Assembly: GCA_022826925.1 (NCBI GenBank)
Contig: JAJDTX010000082.1
Coordinates: 1 to 64,000, forward strand
Reading direction: 5' to 3'
Source: Bryobacterales bacterium
GTDB taxonomy: Bacteria > Acidobacteriota > Terriglobia > Bryobacterales > UBA6623
DNA: 64,000 nucleotides
A model generated the notes under the pieces. It had not been told where the DNA came from and ran no database searches. It saw nothing but the letters and a program-made list of their open reading frames with translations. Made by a program: the position numbers and the translations under genes. This document shows, piece after piece, positions 20,658-49,170 of the stretch. Position 1 is the first letter of the stretch. Each line of letters opens with the position of its first letter.

Positions 20658-21815
20658 CTATGCCTCTTGCAGTCCACCATCCTCATCAACCGTTACGGGG
20701 CGCACTGGCCTCAATGGAATCGTGGGGTGATAGCGTGCGTGACGACGCTCGCCGGTTCGCCGTAGCGCACCTTTGGCGACCATGTCGCCAAGGTCTCTTG
20801 TCGCCGTTGCGGGCGGGGCCCCCGTGATGGTCATGTAGTTCCCGGCGCTCAGGCCGCCGGCGAACCCGTCCGGTCCTTCCCGCAATATCCGTAACAGCGC
20901 TTTCTCCTGTCGGGCATTCAGCCTGTCGCAGAGGCGGTCGAGCAGCCTTGTCTTGTCGACTGCGAATTCGATACGGGCTAGGGTGCGACGCTGGGCTTCG
21001 ATCGTGATGCCGGCAAACCACGCGATCCAAGAAGTTATTGCGTTGTCCCTGGTGGCCGCCTGCAAGGCTGCGTAGTAAGCCTTGCGCCGCCGCAGCGTCG
21101 TAGCGGCCAATGCTGTCAGCGTGGGTTGTCCTGTGCATTGCGATAGAGCTTTCTCGCAGATCGCCCGGCCGATCCGGCCGTTCCCGTCTTCGAAAGGATG
21201 AATGGACTCGAAGTACAGGTGTGCGACCGCAGCCCGCGTCAATCCGGTGAGCGAATCGGTGCCGTCGGGAGCAGTGCGGTTGAACCAAGCGATGAACCGC
21301 TCCATCTGCTCGGGTACCGCTGCAGAAGACGGCGCCTCAAAGTGCACCTTCGGCAAATGAATCGGACCCGAAATGATTTGCATGGCTTCACTACTCGTTC
21401 GGTAGCGACCGACATCGCTCAGACTCCGCGTGCCGCCAAGCAGAGCCCCGTGCCAGCGGAAGAGCATCTCGTGCGAAAGCGGTTCTGCGAACGAGCGATA
21501 GAGATCCACCATCATCTCGGCGATACCCTGGTCCGCAAGCGTCGCCCGCCGCTCGTCGGTTGCCAAGCCGAGTTGTTTCCGGATCGAGAACCGAACGCTC
21601 GCCCGATCCAAGATCTCCCCCTCGATCTCGGATGTGGCTAGGGCTTCGGAGCTGATCGCCTCGATCATGAGGAGTTCGCGGTCAGACTCGTCCAAGTGCG
21701 TGAGCATGCCCTGAAGCACGCCGCTGCCGACGAGAAACACCTCCTCCGCTTTCTTGAAGCGATCCGGATCCCAGGAAAAGTTAGGCCAGTCCGGTCGTTG
21801 CCAGTTCCACGTCAC
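20658..21815 (-). CDS. Fic-family AMP transferase, self-inhibited class
   Basis: A 385-residue Fic protein. The catalytic motif HPFEDGNGRIGR is at 206-217 (catalytic His206) and transfers AMP, or another nucleotide group, to a hydroxyl side chain of a target protein. The inhibitory helix motif, a Ser/Thr followed three residues later by Glu and then Gly/Asn, is present as TSEIEG (61-66), so it looks like a class II enzyme held off by its own N-terminal helix. The N-terminal region (WQRPDWPNFSWD) matches the DUF4172 extension of large bacterial Fic proteins. The C-terminal 100 residues look like a winged-helix segment (ARQEKALLRILREG, NYMTITGAPPATATRDLGDM). It stands alone; no antitoxin gene is beside it. 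Confidence 0.92.
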   Translation of the reverse strand: MTWNWQRPDWPNFSWDPDRFKKAEEVFLVGSGVLQGMLTHLDESDRELLMIEAISSEALATSEIEGEILDRASVRFSIRKQLGLATDERRATLADQGIAEMMVDLYRSFAEPLSHEMLFRWHGALLGGTRSLSDVGRYRTSSEAMQIISGPIHLPKVHFEAPSSAAVPEQMERFIAWFNRTAPDGTDSLTGLTRAAVAHLYFESIHPFEDGNGRIGRAICEKALSQCTGQPTLTALAATTLRRRKAYYAALQAATRDNAITSWIAWFAGITIEAQRRTLARIEFAVDKTRLLDRLCDRLNARQEKALLRILREGPDGFAGGLSAGNYMTITGAPPATATRDLGDMVAKGALRRTGERRHARYHPTIPLRPVRPVTVDEDGGLQEA

Positions 21816-42107: not shown

Positions 42108-44003
42108 CTACACCTTCTTCGTCCGCGTGTCCGCCAAGCTGAATTTCTGGTGCCACTCTGATTCGGCGCCGCCGCCGTACCGGGCGGTCTCGACGTCGAC
42201 TACGTATGGCCGCCCTTCGCGAGTCGCCTCTGCGCCTCTCTTCAGGGCGGCTTCCAGTTCGGAGGACTCGTTGACCTTTTCTCCGTCGACGCCTTGGCTC
42301 TTGGCAAGCTCGACAAAGCTGATGTCCGGGTCGCCGAGATACATTCCCGTATACCGGTCCGACTCGGCCATCTTCCCGCCGTAGCGATAGTAGGCGCCCC
42401 GGACGGTCTGGTAGTTGCGGTTGTTCGAAACCACGGTGAGCACGGGGATCTCGTAGCGCGCCTGGGTCCAGAAACCTGCCGCGCTGTACATTACCGATCC
42501 GTCCCCGATGGAGCAAATGACTTGGCGATCGGGCTCGGCCAGCTTGGCCCCCGCGGACGCGCCAATACCCCATCCGAGACCGTTGCCGGTGTTGGCGACG
42601 CGCATCTTCTCGCCGTCGCGGTGACCGAAGTTGAACGCCCCGAACCGGGCCGTGAGATTCTCGGGCACGATGATCGCGTTGTCGTCGGCCACGCTCGCGA
42701 TTCGCGCGCCGAGTTCGTCAGGATGCACTGGGCCTTGGCCGAAGTTCTTTCGGGCTGCGGCCTCGGCCTTGGCCCGGGATTCCTTGGTGTACGTTGCCAA
42801 GGCCTGCGAGCGCGGCTTGGCAATCTGCTTGCGCCGATTCGCGGTGGTGATCGAGTCGATCGCTTCGTTGAGATCCCGCAGGCCCTCCCGCGGCGTGCCC
42901 GCCAGTACGAGGTCAGTCGGGTAGTTGCGGCTGATGACGTCAGCGTTGGCCGTGAGGCGGATGAACTTCGCTGCCAGCGGCGCCTCCGGCCCGCGCGGCA
43001 CGACCCTGCCGCCAAAGTCGGGCGCGCCGACGCTCAGGACGAGGTCCACCCCGGCCAGCATCTTGTGGTTCTGGTTGAAGCGTCCCAAGTTCTGGGGATG
43101 ATGGGCCGGGAAGTTGTCGTATCCCTGTCCTTGGTTGGTGACCGGTACCCCGAGCTTCTCGGCGAGCTTCAGCAACTCGTCGCACCCGCCGGTCTTCCAG
43201 ACTTCGTCCCCGGCCACCAGCACGGGGCGCTGCGCCTCGACCAGGGCTTTGGCGGCACGCTCGACCGCGTCCTTTGCGGGACGCATCCTGGATTCCGGCG
43301 TGAATCGTTCGCCCGGGAGGATGAGCGCGTCGACGTCCTTTGCTTCCAGCGCGTGGTGCGCCATCGCGAGATAGGTCGGCCCGCCGGGAGGCGCCGTCGC
43401 CACCTTGAACGCCCGGCGCAGCATCAGCGCAAGACTCCGCGGCTCGCGCGACTCCCATGAGATCTTCGTGAACTGGCGGTTGATCTCCTTCTGGTCGAAC
43501 CCCGGGCGCGGCGCGAGTCCCGCGTCGTCGCTCCAGAGCTCGTTGTCGTTCAGACCGGCGGTGACCACCAGTGCGGAACCGTCCTTCGAGGCGTTGTACA
43601 TCTGCCCGGCGGCCTGGGCGGTGCCGGCGATCACGTGGATATTGACGAAACCCGGCTTGCCCGAGGTCCGGTAGTAGCCGTCCGCCAGCGAGATCACGAT
43701 TCCCTCGTGCAGGCCCATGATCAGCTGGGTGTGATCCTGGCCGAGGAATGCGTCGAAGAACCCCACCTCGAAAGACCCGGGATTGGTGAAGAGGTACTCG
43801 ACGCCTGCAGCCTTCATTTGTGCGACGACGAGTTCTCCGCCCGTGCCGGTCATCTTGGTGGCTCCTTGGCCGCTCTCCGACGCCTCGAGCGGCGCGACGA
43901 GCGACTGCGCGGCGGCGGCGGTGAACCCCAATCCGGCAAGAGCTTCGAAGAGCCCGCGGCGCGAGATGGAACTGTCCAGGTAGCTGGCGATCAAATGACG
44001 CAT
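42108..44003 (-). CDS. Tat-exported thiamine-diphosphate-dependent enzyme
   Basis: A 631-residue enzyme of the acetolactate-synthase/benzoylformate-decarboxylase superfamily. The N-terminus contains a twin-arginine leader (SISRRGLFEALAGLGFTAAA, Arg15-Arg16). The pyrimidine-binding domain starts at about 52 (GGELVVAQMKAAGVEYLFTN) with the cofactor-activating Glu100 in GLHEGIVISLADGY. A central Rossmann-like domain follows (KALVEAQRPVLVAGDEVWKT). The ThDP/metal site is in the C-terminal domain: ICSIGDGSVMYSAAGFW, then VVSNNRNYQ. Which 2-oxoacid it acts on is unknown. ThDP enzymes are normally cytoplasmic; Tat would export it folded with its cofactor. It is a monocistronic gene. Confidence 0.88.
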   Translation of the reverse strand: MRHLIASYLDSSISRRGLFEALAGLGFTAAAAQSLVAPLEASESGQGATKMTGTGGELVVAQMKAAGVEYLFTNPGSFEVGFFDAFLGQDHTQLIMGLHEGIVISLADGYYRTSGKPGFVNIHVIAGTAQAAGQMYNASKDGSALVVTAGLNDNELWSDDAGLAPRPGFDQKEINRQFTKISWESREPRSLALMLRRAFKVATAPPGGPTYLAMAHHALEAKDVDALILPGERFTPESRMRPAKDAVERAAKALVEAQRPVLVAGDEVWKTGGCDELLKLAEKLGVPVTNQGQGYDNFPAHHPQNLGRFNQNHKMLAGVDLVLSVGAPDFGGRVVPRGPEAPLAAKFIRLTANADVISRNYPTDLVLAGTPREGLRDLNEAIDSITTANRRKQIAKPRSQALATYTKESRAKAEAAARKNFGQGPVHPDELGARIASVADDNAIIVPENLTARFGAFNFGHRDGEKMRVANTGNGLGWGIGASAGAKLAEPDRQVICSIGDGSVMYSAAGFWTQARYEIPVLTVVSNNRNYQTVRGAYYRYGGKMAESDRYTGMYLGDPDISFVELAKSQGVDGEKVNESSELEAALKRGAEATREGRPYVVDVETARYGGGAESEWHQKFSLADTRTKKV

Positions 44004-44280
44004 GGTTTCCTCCTAACGAGTGTTCACATAGATCGTAGACGAGATCGACCGCGCAATGGTAGGCCAATTTAGCTGTCTGACCTTCTCAACGGCGGTTCGG
44101 AGGCCGCTCTGCGAGTGAAATCTCCGTACTCTGCCGCCGCGCCCGCGCCGACAGTGAGCAGATACGGCGGGGCCGCTGTTCGGCTTGTCAGTGTTTGATG
44201 TGCATTGATGGCACCCGACTTGGTCGTCGGCGACCGCCGCTAGTACTGCCTGCAGGCGGTCGTCCGCCTCTCTGGCCATA
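44004..44280. other. Non-coding spacer before the fic repeat array
   Basis: Together with the repeats at 44281-44510 this is a stretch of about 540 bases without a gene. This part has no recognised signal. A leftward 88-codon frame at 44013-44279 has no family features. Confidence 0.45.
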
Positions 44281-44395
44281 GACGAGTAAAGGTTTGCCGG
44301 ATTTCTTGGCAGCTCGCGTCCGAAGTGTCAAAGCGCTTGCCAAGTCGGTCGAATTTCTGTCAAGTCTTCGAGGAATGTTTGACAGATCGAAACAG
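44281..44395. repeat. Fic-flanking repeat unit A (115 bp)
   Basis: First of two tandem units downstream of fic. It starts GACGAGTAAAG and contains the half-sites TTGGCA (44306), TGTCAA (44326), TGTCAA (44358) and TTGACA (44379). The last two form an inverted repeat with a spacer of exactly 15 bases. Unit B begins 115 bases later with the same order of half-sites. Confidence 0.85.
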
Positions 44396-44510
44396 GACCG
44401 ATAAAGAATTTCTGGATTCCTTGGCGAGTTGCGCTTGAAGTGTCAAAGGGTTTGCCAAGTCAGCAGAAAGCTGTCAAGGTTTCGACGAACTCTTGACAGG
44501 TGGGGCGGAC
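44396..44510. repeat. Fic-flanking repeat unit B (115 bp)
   Basis: Second tandem unit, ending 33 bases before the fic stop codon. Half-sites lie at 44421 (TTGGCG), 44441 (TGTCAA), 44472 (TGTCAA) and 44493 (TTGACA). CTGTCAAG at 44471-44478 and CTTGACAG at 44492-44499 are perfect 8-base inverted arms. The unit aligns with A with a single one-base gap. It is even closer to unit C at 45761, on the other side of the gene. Confidence 0.85.
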
Positions 44511-44543
44511 CTGTCGATATGTCGGGTCGAACCCTAGGCCCGT

Positions 44544-45644
44544 TCACACTAGGCCGGTGTCGTCTTCTTCTCGGAACAGCTCGACCAGTCGGGTGTTGAC
44601 GAAATAGTCAGCCCGGCCTGCGCGTTGCTTGCTCAAAAGCCCTTCGGCCGTAAGCTGCTTCAGGTACTTGGTAGCCGTTGGCCGGGACACGCTCACTTCT
44701 TGCTGCAGCGCCAGTACTCGTGTGTACGGATGGCGGAAGAGAGCATTGAGCAATTCGTGGGAGTAGAGGTGAGGCAGTTTGGTCCGGATCACATCCTTGT
44801 ACTCCGCCATCAAGGCGCGAATGCTCTCGACCAGTCGGAGAGTGTCGCGGGACGTGTCCGCGACAGCCATGAGCATGTAGGTTACCCAGTCTTCCCAAGC
44901 ACTCTCTTGCTGCACAGCCCGCAGCAGTCGGTAGTACCGTGGCTTTGAACGGGTAATGGCTCCGCTGAGGTAGAGAATGGGTGTCTCGAGCAGTCCGCAG
45001 CGAACCAAGTACAGCACGTTGAGAATTCGTCCTACCCGTCCATTCCCATCGTCGAATGGATGAATGCTCTCGAATTGATGGTGGAGGATCGCCATCTTCA
45101 CCAACGGGTCGAGCCCAGAGAGCGCATCGTCATTGGCGAATCTCGTGAGTTCGTCCATTCTTTCCAATACCTCGGTCGGATCTTGGGGCGGGACGTGAAC
45201 GACCTCTCCAGTGAACGTGTTCATGATCACAGTTCCCTCTCTGACACGGAAACCATCGGTTCGAGACTTCACCATGCGGTAGATTTCGATCAAGAGGTCG
45301 TTCGTTAGCTGATTGTCGTTCTGCTTCAGGCCATGGAATCCTAGCTTGACCGCGCTCCGATAGCTAGTGACTTCCTTCGCGGCTGGATCCCGCAGCGAAT
45401 CTGGGAATAATGCGGCGCGGTATAGGTCGTCCTGAGTGGTGACAATATTCTCGATTTCGCAGCTCGCTCGCGCCTCTTGGAGTGTCAGCATGTCAATGAG
45501 GATCTCCGGGTTCGGTACTGAGATCGCCCGGCCCTTCAGTTCTGCAAGATTTCGGTTCGCGAGTAATGCTGCCTTGAGGATCGACGGGGTTTCGAGCTCG
45601 ACGCTTGGGGGCAGTGAAGGCATTCTGTAGGTTGGCTGCAACAT
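44544..45644 (-). CDS. Fic-family AMP transferase with winged-helix C-terminus
   Basis: A 366-residue Fic protein. The core motif HPFDDGNGRVGR (195-206, catalytic His195) predicts nucleotidyl transfer to a target. SCEIEN (61-66) supplies the inhibitory helix (Ser61, Glu65, Asn66), so it is class II like the other Fic protein at 20658-21815, with which it shares domain order but little sequence. Residues about 295-355 form a winged-helix DNA-binding region (RVLALQQEVSVSRPTATKYL, then KQLTAEGLLSKQRAGRADYF), so it could bind its own control region. The gene is bracketed by copies of the 115-bp repeat on both sides. Its promoter (45668-45696) uses one of the repeat half-sites as -35. Confidence 0.93.
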   Translation of the reverse strand: MLQPTYRMPSLPPSVELETPSILKAALLANRNLAELKGRAISVPNPEILIDMLTLQEARASCEIENIVTTQDDLYRAALFPDSLRDPAAKEVTSYRSAVKLGFHGLKQNDNQLTNDLLIEIYRMVKSRTDGFRVREGTVIMNTFTGEVVHVPPQDPTEVLERMDELTRFANDDALSGLDPLVKMAILHHQFESIHPFDDGNGRVGRILNVLYLVRCGLLETPILYLSGAITRSKPRYYRLLRAVQQESAWEDWVTYMLMAVADTSRDTLRLVESIRALMAEYKDVIRTKLPHLYSHELLNALFRHPYTRVLALQQEVSVSRPTATKYLKQLTAEGLLSKQRAGRADYFVNTRLVELFREEDDTGLV

Positions 45645-45667
45645 GTATTGGTACCAAAAACAGGTTT

Positions 45668-45696
45668 AGTTTACTGTAGATCAGGTCTATTGTCAA
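45668..45696 (-). promoter_or_regulatory. fic promoter embedded in the repeat inverted site
   Basis: On the minus strand a perfect TTGACA (45696-45691) is followed after exactly 17 bases by TAAACT (45673-45668), 24 bases before the fic ATG at 45644. The same TTGACA is one arm of the inverted repeat TGTCAA-N15-TTGACA at 45691-45717, so a protein bound to that site would cover the -35 box. Confidence 0.7.
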
Positions 45697-45760
45697 CATT
45701 TCTCGAAATATTTGACAGATCATGGGCGGACTTGTCAAGCGGCTTGCTATCAGGTGTGGG
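45685..45760. repeat. Partial fic-flanking repeat unit next to the promoter
   Basis: This stretch resembles the second half of unit A (TTTGACAGATC and the preceding inverted arm) followed by CATGGGCGGAC. Half-sites are at 45691 (TGTCAA), 45712 (TTGACA) and 45733 (TGTCAA), 21 bases apart. It joins unit C directly, which suggests that the upstream flank once held more complete tandem units. Confidence 0.7.
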
Positions 45761-45875
45761 GACGAGTAAAGATTTTCTGGATTCTTTGACAGTTTGCGGC
45801 CGAAGTGCCAAAGGGCTTGCTGGGTCGGCGGAGAGCTGTCAAGGTTTTGGCGAATTCTTGACAGGTGGGGGCTGT
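45761..45875. repeat. Fic-flanking repeat unit C (115 bp)
   Basis: Upstream copy in the same orientation as A and B, beginning with the same GACGAGTAAAG. Half-sites are at 45786 (TTGACA), 45806 (TGCCAA), 45837 (TGTCAA) and 45858 (TTGACA), the last two again separated by 15 bases. The final GAATTCTTGACAGGTGGGG nearly repeats the end of unit B. Confidence 0.85.
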
Positions 45876-46224
45876 GGAGTGGCCTACCAAGAAGTTCTGG
45901 AGACGAGCCAAGATCTTCCGGCCTTAGCCCTGCGCCCGTCGGCAGCGAATCTCGACGACGCGTCTCCTTCGATGGGGAGTGGGGTCGCGACAGGATTGAG
46001 CGTCTGGGAACGAAGTGACGACACTTCGGTCTAGCGAGGCGCACCTCAGACCAAAAGGCATTGAGATCCCGAATCCTAACTCGAGCGCTTACGCAGCATT
46101 GATAGCGAGACCGGGGATTGCGGGGCTGCTTAGGCGTTCAAGAGCATGATCCGACGCGCAATCCAGCGCCAATCCCCAGCTTCGTAGCGGGCGGAGGGTA
46201 GCGCCGAGTGCCTACGCCTGGCAG
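45876..46224. other. Non-coding stretch after the repeats
   Basis: About 350 bases with no supported gene or signal. The rightward frame at 45648-46034 runs through the repeats and has no protein-like features. Confidence 0.45.
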
Positions 46225-47100
46225 CTAGCGGTCGGGCTCGGATGGAGTGGCATTGGCCGCGTGGGCGCGGAGTTGCTCCTCCAGTGACCGCACTCGCTCG
46301 TCCGCCGCGCTTGCCGCCTGCTTGGCCGCGCTTGCCGCCTGCTTCGCCGCAATTGCCTCCTGCTCTGCTGCGCTCGCCCGCTTCTCTGCCGCGTTCGCCC
46401 TCTGCTTGGCTGCCCGCGAATCACGCTCTGCGATCCGCCTCCGCCGCTCGGCTTCTTCCAGCGCGCCGTCGGTCTCTTCCCCCGTGCGCGGATCCCGGAA
46501 TACCAGAACCGTCGCCCGGGCCTGCCTCTGGCTGCGCAGTTCCAGCCCCAGCACCTGGCTCCGGAACCACCGCTCCTGGTCGCTGCTCGCCACGGGCTGC
46601 ACCGGCTCGTACTCCCCGCCGCTGGCCTCGTAGCCCTCTAAGGATGACCCCATCAAGGTTCCCTCGGGGTCCAGCCTCCAGTATTCGCGAACGCCCATCC
46701 GGGCGTACTCCCCCAGCTTGTACTCGGCATCGTGTTCCGCCGTCGCCGGCGACGCCACCTCCAGCACGAAATCCGGGGCCTTTCCTTCCTCCCAGATCCG
46801 GTACGACCTGCGATTCTCAGGGCTCACCCCGAACACGACCTGCACGTCCGGCTGCAGCCAGACATTGTCATCGCCACGCCGGTAGTACACCGCCAGTTCC
46901 ATGGCCACCAGCACGTCCGTGCGGTTCCGGAAGTGGTTCCGCAAGGCCGCCGCCGCTTGCAACACGGCATCGCCGTGCGCGATGCTCTGCGCGATCCAAT
47001 TCCGTTCCGGGTATTCGATCTTGTCCGGCTTCGCAGGCGCCTCGGCAACGGCAGTGGCCCGCCCGGAAAGTTCCGTGTCTGTCGCGGTCTTGAAGGGCAT
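46225..47100 (-). CDS. Uma2-family nuclease-fold protein with coiled-coil tail
   Basis: A 291-residue protein of the Uma2 (DUF820) restriction-endonuclease-like fold. Core features are HFRNRTDVLVAMELAVYYRR, WLQPDVQVVFGV, DFVLEVASPATAEHDAEYKL (the PDxE-like acidic pair with the downstream Lys), and YARMGVREYWRLDPEGTLMG. The C-terminal 90 residues form a strongly helical, Ala-rich region (ERRRRIAERDSRAAKQRANA, then AAKQAASAAKQAASAADERV) with seven-residue repeats. The ATG at 47100 is preferred to 47127 because the family begins close to it. Uma2 proteins are abundant in cyanobacteria and large genomes, but their natural role is unknown. Confidence 0.85.
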   Translation of the reverse strand: MPFKTATDTELSGRATAVAEAPAKPDKIEYPERNWIAQSIAHGDAVLQAAAALRNHFRNRTDVLVAMELAVYYRRGDDNVWLQPDVQVVFGVSPENRRSYRIWEEGKAPDFVLEVASPATAEHDAEYKLGEYARMGVREYWRLDPEGTLMGSSLEGYEASGGEYEPVQPVASSDQERWFRSQVLGLELRSQRQARATVLVFRDPRTGEETDGALEEAERRRRIAERDSRAAKQRANAAEKRASAAEQEAIAAKQAASAAKQAASAADERVRSLEEQLRAHAANATPSEPDR

Positions 47101-47228
47101 CTCGCAACGGGCAGCGCACGAACGCACTGCTTGTAGACGATGCTAGCACCATGCCAGAGGTCGTTGACGGGCAGACGCCCGGGCCAGCGCTCGGCACTGC
47201 TGTCAAAGGAAGGGCCTGCCCGCATCGC

Positions 47229-48679: not shown

Positions 48680-48944
48680 TCATCTCGGCTTCCTTCGATA
48701 GGCGTCCTGTCGAGGGGCAACTCGAACGACCAGCACGACGAGCACATCTTCCTGAACTTCATACATGATCCGGTACTCGCCGACGCGAAGCCGCCCCAAG
48801 CCCCGCAGATTCGCTTTCAGGCGTTTCCCCCAAAGGGGTCTTCGGCCAACCGCTCGAGGCCGCGACAATCCGAGTTCGATCCCGCTTGGGGACACGTCGC
48901 AGTTCCCGCGCCGCACCGCTCTTAATCCGAATCGAGAAGTTCAC
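48680..48944 (-). pseudogene. relE-type toxin gene broken by frameshifts
   Basis: A RelE/ParE-like toxin can be read only by changing frame. The start VNFSIRIKSGAARELRRVPK (GTG at 48944) is in one frame, the middle ERLAEDPFGGNA in a second, and the end RLKANLRGLGRLRVGEYRIM, then VRVAPRQDAYRRKPR, in a third. The assembled order matches the family: Arg-rich N-terminus, LAEDP, LRVGEYRIMYEV, and a final basic helix. Two single-base indels would explain it. Sequencing error cannot be excluded from sequence alone. It overlaps the stop of the antitoxin gene 48922-49170. Confidence 0.75.
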
Positions 48945-49170
48945 GTCGAACCTGGCCCCAATCCAGCACAGCATCGCCGGGATCGCAGAGCCTTTCCACG
49001 GCCACTGAGAGGTCGTCGAAGTCCTCCAGATAGCGCTCGACTGCTTGGCGGACGACGTCAGTGCGACTGCACCTCAGCTGGCTTGCAGTGTGGTCTAGTT
49101 GATCGACTACCGAGTCCGGCAGCAGTGCGGTGACCTGCCTCATGGCACCTGCGATGTCCTCCAATGTCAC
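48922..49170 (-). CDS. Ribbon-helix-helix antitoxin, RelB/CopG type
   Basis: An 82-residue protein with a ribbon-helix-helix N-terminus (VTALLPDSVVDQLDHTASQL, then RTDVVRQAVERYLEDF) and an acidic C-terminus (VLDWGQVRRELLDSD) that would bind the toxin. It overlaps the decayed relE reading frame by about 20 bases, which is the usual antitoxin-first order. If the frameshift in the toxin gene is real, this antitoxin is an orphan. Confidence 0.82.
   Translation of the reverse strand: MTLEDIAGAMRQVTALLPDSVVDQLDHTASQLRCSRTDVVRQAVERYLEDFDDLSVAVERLCDPGDAVLDWGQVRRELLDSD

Follow-up and report, generated by a model that had tools for sequence, protein, structure and literature searches.

The Fic-fold toxin of Phd/Doc is autoregulated through several operator sites, the DNA being bound by a separate antitoxin. 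In SoFic, by contrast, toxin and DNA-binding domain are one protein. A gene of this kind was analysed here in 64,000 nucleotides from a Bryobacterales bacterium (the window; GenBank assembly GCA_022826925.1, contig JAJDTX010000082.1, positions 1 to 64,000 of the forward strand). It stands between two arrays of short half-sites, which are probably a helically phased, multivalent operator for autorepression by the SoFic protein encoded between them. The arrays are real, ordered and dedicated to SoFic genes, and their grammar recurs across phyla without being universal; the operator architecture is new, the kind of protein already known.

CccR of Yersinia pseudotuberculosis is a class II Fic protein and type VI secretion system effector that represses its own promoter through a C-terminal helix-turn-helix (HTH); its operator consists of inverted repeats (10-bp boxes 26 bp apart, a 46-nt palindrome) and a dimer is needed (available part of PMC9755527). 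The window SoFic is likewise a predicted Fic AMPylase with a C-terminal HTH and inverted half-sites upstream, and its DNA binding is predicted; it differs in that the CccR operator, as far as that part of the paper goes, is a single one of other sequence and spacing, whereas the window has about 25 half-sites of 6 bp at about 20, 21 and 11 bp. CbFic2, also a class II Fic protein, has a C-terminal HTH that binds DNA; it was assayed on random DNA, and no specific operator is identified for it in the portion of the paper available (PMC10628234). Regulation of SoFic itself has been described by way of an inhibitory helix, dimerisation, the C-terminal domain and the antitoxin AS1 (PMC12249575, PMC3667792, each in part); in the accessible text of these papers the words operator and promoter refer only to expression vectors (PMC12249575) or are absent (PMC3667792). 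No description of a SoFic operator was found in the open-access literature, preprints and most subscription papers lying outside the search. The initial annotation knew of no described operator array flanking a Fic gene; this holds for SoFic within that incomplete search, and autorepression by a Fic protein was already published for CccR (available part of PMC9755527).

By family profile the window gene is a class II SoFic of the anti-phage AMPylase family, and PADLOC, Pfam and structure matches place it with the SoFic defence protein: Pfam, Fic_N, Fic, SoFic-like_C (81.3 bits) and HTH_24; PADLOC SoFic model, 358 bits; solved structures of SoFic and related proteins, matched by the protein sequence at E 4e-79 to 1e-71. 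The motifs HPFxDGNGR and (S/T)xxxE(G/N), the latter as the class II inhibitory motif SCEIEN (residues 61–66), are both intact, with key columns invariant among 8 proteins (alignment A1); the recognition helix, placed by eye in this alignment, is SRPTATKYL (residues 320–328). The promoter side of fic faces the array at 45.6–45.9 kb, and the stop codon is followed by the array at 44.3–44.5 kb.

44544..45644, minus strand: SoFic gene, 366 amino acids (Fic_N, Fic, SoFic-like C-terminal winged helix)
44586..44813, minus strand: part coding for the SoFic-like C-terminal winged HTH, residues 278–353 (Pfam)
45036..45062, minus strand: Fic catalytic motif HPFDDGNGR, residues 195–203
45649..45863, minus strand: upstream operator array, 12 alternating half-sites, the last weak; steps 21, 20, 11, 20, 21, 21, 11, 21, 21, 21, 21
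44285..44517, minus strand: downstream operator array, 13 alternating half-sites, the first weak; steps 19, 21, 20, 11, 20, 22, 20, 21, 21, 11, 20, 21

The best alternating chains scored 62.6 (upstream) and 74.8 (downstream); maxima in 200 dinucleotide shuffles were 30.2 and 31.6. The chain search in the window presupposes alternation and steps of 19–21 and 10–11 or 20–22 bp; since chain searches admit the stated steps only, the steps printed above are no independent evidence, and pair counts and phasing are. With no assumption about steps, the 6 exact half-sites of each array were phased with R 0.97 at 10.45 bp (upstream, p 0.002) and R 0.98 at 10.40 bp (downstream, p 0.0005). Across the window and related arrays exact half-sites were phased at 10.25–10.45 bp, with p ≤ 0.002 in 7/8 arrays; these p-values are not independent, because the arrays are repetitive and akin to one another. 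The repeats exist as described, and chance is excluded as their origin. Of the spacings given in the initial annotation the helical phasing stands, and under the alternating parse the gaps of 31/32, 42 and 53 bp dissolve into composites of 20-, 21- and 11-bp steps by way of degenerate half-sites. Its suggestion that the sites are bound on a single face of the helix, perhaps by the Fic protein, is supported, with that protein as the most likely reader, and holds more widely than had been claimed.

Three direct-repeat units, a partial unit and four exact sites (TGTCAA-N15-TTGACA) were located, exactly at the positions first reported for them.

44281..44395, plus strand: direct-repeat unit A (exact site 44358–44384)
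44396..44510, plus strand: direct-repeat unit B (exact site 44472–44498)
45761..45875, plus strand: direct-repeat unit C (exact site 45837–45863)
45691..45717, plus strand: exact site in the partial unit that lies closest to the fic promoter (partial copy at 45691)

Against unit A the 68-nt cores of B and C show 74% and 79% identity; between B and C identity is 79% over 111 nt. In the organism's own assembly (5,965,398 bases) the exact site occurs 4 times, always at this fic locus, and the reversed control pattern has 0 exact matches; with one mismatch there are 9 sites (4 here, 5 elsewhere) against 4 for the control, that is, about background; one of the five others is found 3' of this genome's second SoFic gene, at a distance of about 1.1 kb. 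The 110-nt unit matched its own genome at the window fic locus only and, among 100 genomes (own included), gave further clear matches only at the orthologous fic gene of a sister species (G002); a weak match in G035 (L005), situated within a reading frame, was taken as chance. The exact site was found 13 times in the 100 genomes, 9 times at SoFic loci (4 in the window, 3 in G002, 1 in G009 and 1 at a gene remnant in G004) and 4 times away from them (G002 contig C82, L023; G042, L020; G084, L021; G091, L019); L023 is an isolated site on inspection.

Within the genus, 11 genomes (own included) were searched for SoFic genes at E ≤ 1e-60. Six of them carry such genes, 8 in total (the window's and 7 relatives at 63–98% amino acid identity): the window type in the own genome (G000) and in G002 (L035, 98%); a second type, B (63–65% to the window's), in G000, G002, G005, G009 and G010; and a relative at 67% in G007. 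TTGACA/TGTCAA arrays lie upstream of all 8. In the B-type arrays the exact half-sites recur with a 72-bp period (−58, −130, −202 and so on; intervals 20, 11 and 41 bp), which the chain parse fills in with steps of 20, 11, 20 and 21. Window-type and B-type loci, unlike in their repeat units, thus have one spacing grammar in common. The half-site spacing, whose conservation the initial annotation had made a point of its proposal, is kept at other loci of the genus and, beyond it, at SoFic genes from other phyla, in contrast to the 115-bp unit. Extension of the arrays in this genus, at the window locus also 3' of the gene, is best explained by repeat duplication. Contig C79 of G000 carries the second SoFic gene and another Fic gene about 10 kb apart (L013 and L015); cross-regulation of the two SoFic genes of G000 is possible because both have the SRPTA helix and belong to the TTGACA class.

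Bracketing of the gene by direct repeats recalls mobile-element ends or recombination sites (a miniature inverted-repeat transposable element, or attC- or pdif-like cassette borders) that brought fic in, and the sharp boundary just past the upstream array would fit such an origin: at 45864–46100 G000 and G002 are 24% diverged (55/227 sites, 10 gaps), fic, the arrays and the other flank differing only by about 2–8%. This origin is disfavoured and very improbable: neither the unit nor the exact site is dispersed in the own genome, and no copy of the 115-bp unit dispersed without fic was found in the genome or its relatives; the phased grammar is common to SoFic genes that lack bracketing repeats; and the B locus has no exact half-site within 700 bp downstream. 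Recombination of the direct repeats had also been proposed as a way of losing fic; this is unsupported, no case having been seen. The lone loss (L024, a paralogous locus of G004, 1500–1816) is an internal deletion rather than a repeat exchange, the array being kept and fic cut to residues 313–360, its last 48, directly behind it.

For SoFic genes of other bacteria a species-genome scan was made and the best 80 of 484 relatives were kept; inspection by eye of their upstream regions, mostly from Alphaproteobacteria, revealed this grammar again, built on the half-site TTAACA and in many cases terminating in the start codon. A non-redundant set of 73 loci was drawn from 104 (31 redundant left out); it is without L129 and L137 (partial matches), the starts of L128 and L132 are estimated, and the distant Fic genes L142–L145 stand outside the tests. 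In the 52 non-redundant upstream regions outside Bryobacterales, there are 49 convergent pairs spaced by 20 bp, against 0.84 in shuffles, and 48 divergent pairs spaced by 21 bp, against 1.14. Counted as TNNACA half-sites, pairs at 20, 21 and 11 bp occur in 37/73, 36/73 and 12/73 loci, with 0.2–0.3 expected. Lesser peaks (52 upstream regions: convergent 39, 19, 17 and 6 bp, divergent 43 bp; TNNACA count: convergent 19 and 61 bp, divergent 22 bp) are partly two-step sums and near-palindromic matches.

In a class-free chain test 63/73 upstream regions scored at p ≤ 0.01, against 3/71 of the 3' flanks taken as control (p ≤ 0.05: 66/73 against 9/71). The three scoring flanks are L035, with a window-type downstream array, L119 and L096, the first two being read as genuine arrays. 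Significant scores for the grammar come from at least four phyla (Acidobacteriota, Pseudomonadota, Bacteroidota, Verrucomicrobiota); a Chloroflexota locus gave p 0.059 (L087) and, as L139, p 0.075 (outside the helix set and the tree). L033, outside the set of 73 for an in-frame TAG and tested alone, has an RQ helix, the TTAACA class and p 0.005. Among five other Fic genes of the own genome 0/5 scored at p 0.05 in the 500 bp before the match, a weak control because the matches start at query residues 5–152, so that for two genes those 500 bp hold little true upstream sequence.

The TTAACA class makes up 41 of the 73 loci. In 36/41 of these the start codon is itself a half-site (ATGTTAA), and in 28/41 the start half-site is paired with another lying exactly 20 bp before it. 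The second codon is TTA in 37/41; over the rest of the same genes TTA accounts for 46 of 1974 codons for leucine. Selection at the DNA level thus seems to act on the half-site at the start codon. In a fresh test 42 new loci from three further groups were fetched and 39 parsed (L167, L174 and L187 were dropped for want of a start or helix; seven weaker matches of this search yielded no locus); an operator was found at p ≤ 0.02 in 23/39. SoFic genes in which no operator was detected include L182 and L183, which on inspection seem to follow immediately after another reading frame, and L164, L166 and L168, with an unusual IAVRQTAS helix.

The half-site varies with the protein. In 66 operator-bearing loci it tracks the residue after SR/TR of the recognition helix: with RQ helices the third base is A in 46/47; with RP helices it is G or T in 8/8 and A in 0/8; with [K/E]RQ helices the half-site is TCGACA in 7/7. 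The rule was written down before the fresh loci were fetched and held in 7/7 of those loci that belong to the stated helix classes and show an operator (14 loci in those classes). Fresh loci with I, L or V, for which there was no prior prediction, have T as third base in 15/15, and one fresh RM helix is paired with TCGACA. An apparent recognition-helix code would link SoFic to its half-site, and SoFic is taken as the likely reader of the arrays because the inner bases of the half-site follow its recognition helix, although the helix has changed independently only a few times.

The same observation bears on another regulator, a repressor or activator encoded by the host defence island or by a phage, that would read the arrays while the winged helix of SoFic served dimerisation or allostery only. 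DNA binding by SoFic is stated as undemonstrated in the available part of PMC10628234, and for EcSofic the C-terminal domain is reported to be important in toxicity (PMC12249575, part available), both of which would suit such a regulator. It is nevertheless improbable, given that the half-site bases follow the SoFic helix, that exact sites occur genome-wide at this fic gene only, and that a grammar found in at least four phyla makes a common outside regulator unlikely. With SoFic as reader, the cross-phylum grammar and the apparent helix code tell which DNA to test for each SoFic protein; autorepression and DNA-controlled toxicity become directly testable, annotation of SoFic promoters is aided, and the expanded arrays offer a natural case of sites phased at one or two turns for an enzyme that is possibly its own regulator.

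A possible promoter was found within the upstream array; its −35 box is an array half-site and its −10 box overlaps a weak one.

45668..45696, minus strand: possible fic promoter TTGACA-N17-TAAACT, 10/12 match to consensus

Autorepression is the plain reading because the array covers the upstream region, as shown for CccR (PMC9755527, part available). From the computed sites, phasing, dedication, grammar and helix match we infer binding by SoFic, repression by this binding and stacking of dimers. SoFic dimers would contact convergent half-site pairs (TTGACA ... TGTCAA) about 20 bp, two turns, apart; one dimer probably sits on one convergent pair because in the pair counts convergent half-sites lie 20 (19) bp and divergent ones 21 (22) or 11 bp apart. 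Neighbouring dimers would follow at 11 or 21 bp, one or two turns, with all half-sites on one face of the DNA, and same-face dimers may stack along the array. A filled array would shut off transcription, as one half-site forms the −35 box of the possible promoter and a weak one lies over its −10 box; the outcome would be negative autoregulation of a toxic anti-phage AMPylase, probably steep, since a large number of half-sites has to be occupied. Outside the genus SoFic genes commonly have the operator in a shorter version that often ends in the start codon.

Several results weigh against autorepression by SoFic through such an operator. The promoter match, covered by the inverted half-sites, is the sole one in 43950–46200, yet shuffles average 0.9, so that it is no rarer than chance. 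Phasing of exact sites in the G007 array is not significant (p 0.11), and between G000 and G002 5/138 half-site and 16/270 spacer positions are changed, an unclear difference in conservation. Seven of the first 73 upstream regions fail at p 0.05, and that set was not blind, because it was inspected before the grammar was fixed. The prior expectation of an operator at every new locus failed in 16/39 (41–53% amino acid identity), among them 7/14 loci of the stated helix classes (one of the 7 at p 0.03); with 16/39 new and 7/73 first loci failing, the operator is not universal. In trees of the Fic part the helix changes about 4 times; well-supported branches provide 3 independent contrasts, which agree in almost every pairing and are too few for significance, a wider tree gave 2 such contrasts, and the I/L/V-to-T contrast is mostly uninformative (1.9 agreeing and 3.1 not differing of 5). 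Finally, the downstream array is unexplained by simple promoter repression; it suggests titration, looping or a second, lost promoter in addition. L119 (phage record MT836782.1) has a TTTACA-class operator just 3' of its SoFic gene (p 0.005) and none upstream (p 0.55), and is a second case of a downstream array.

That half of some 25 half-sites lie behind the gene, where repression is not needed, would be accommodated if the array were mainly a DNA buffer that sequesters SoFic dimers, perhaps inactive or de-AMPylating, release being the trigger and repression secondary. For CbFic2 the authors suggest that on DNA the protein shifts to a dimer that de-AMPylates (PMC10628234, available part). Operators of the TTAACA class mostly finish at the start codon, a position in keeping with repression instead; a buffer as the main role is unlikely. 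Slightly less likely again is that the DNA acts as antitoxin: SoFic dimers stacked on the arrays would form an inactive, perhaps de-AMPylating filament that both represses the gene and stores the toxin until phage attack releases it. Attack on host DNA or transcription would then strip the filament, and the two-sided arrays of the Bryobacterales would be an enlarged store. Autorepression by SoFic remains the preferred explanation.

Further features of the window were noted around the locus. A distant Fic-like gene lies at 20964–21425 (minus strand; 32% over residues 127–274); the 500 bp before this match, probably mostly coding, show no operator grammar (chain test p 0.90). Short open reading frames (ORFs) are present downstream of fic. 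A longer ORF of 88 amino acids (44013–44279, on the fic strand), which separates the downstream array from the next gene, was weighed as a possible antitoxin and rejected; it has no Pfam match and is probably non-coding, because its 10 differences to G002 fall only at codon positions 1 (3) and 2 (7). A Uma2-family gene at 46225–47127 (minus strand) has 21-bp repeats in its 3' part (46304–46408). A probable parDE-type toxin–antitoxin pair, a ParE-like toxin (PF05016) and a ribbon-helix-helix protein, is found at 48680–49170 (minus strand), 3 kb from fic.
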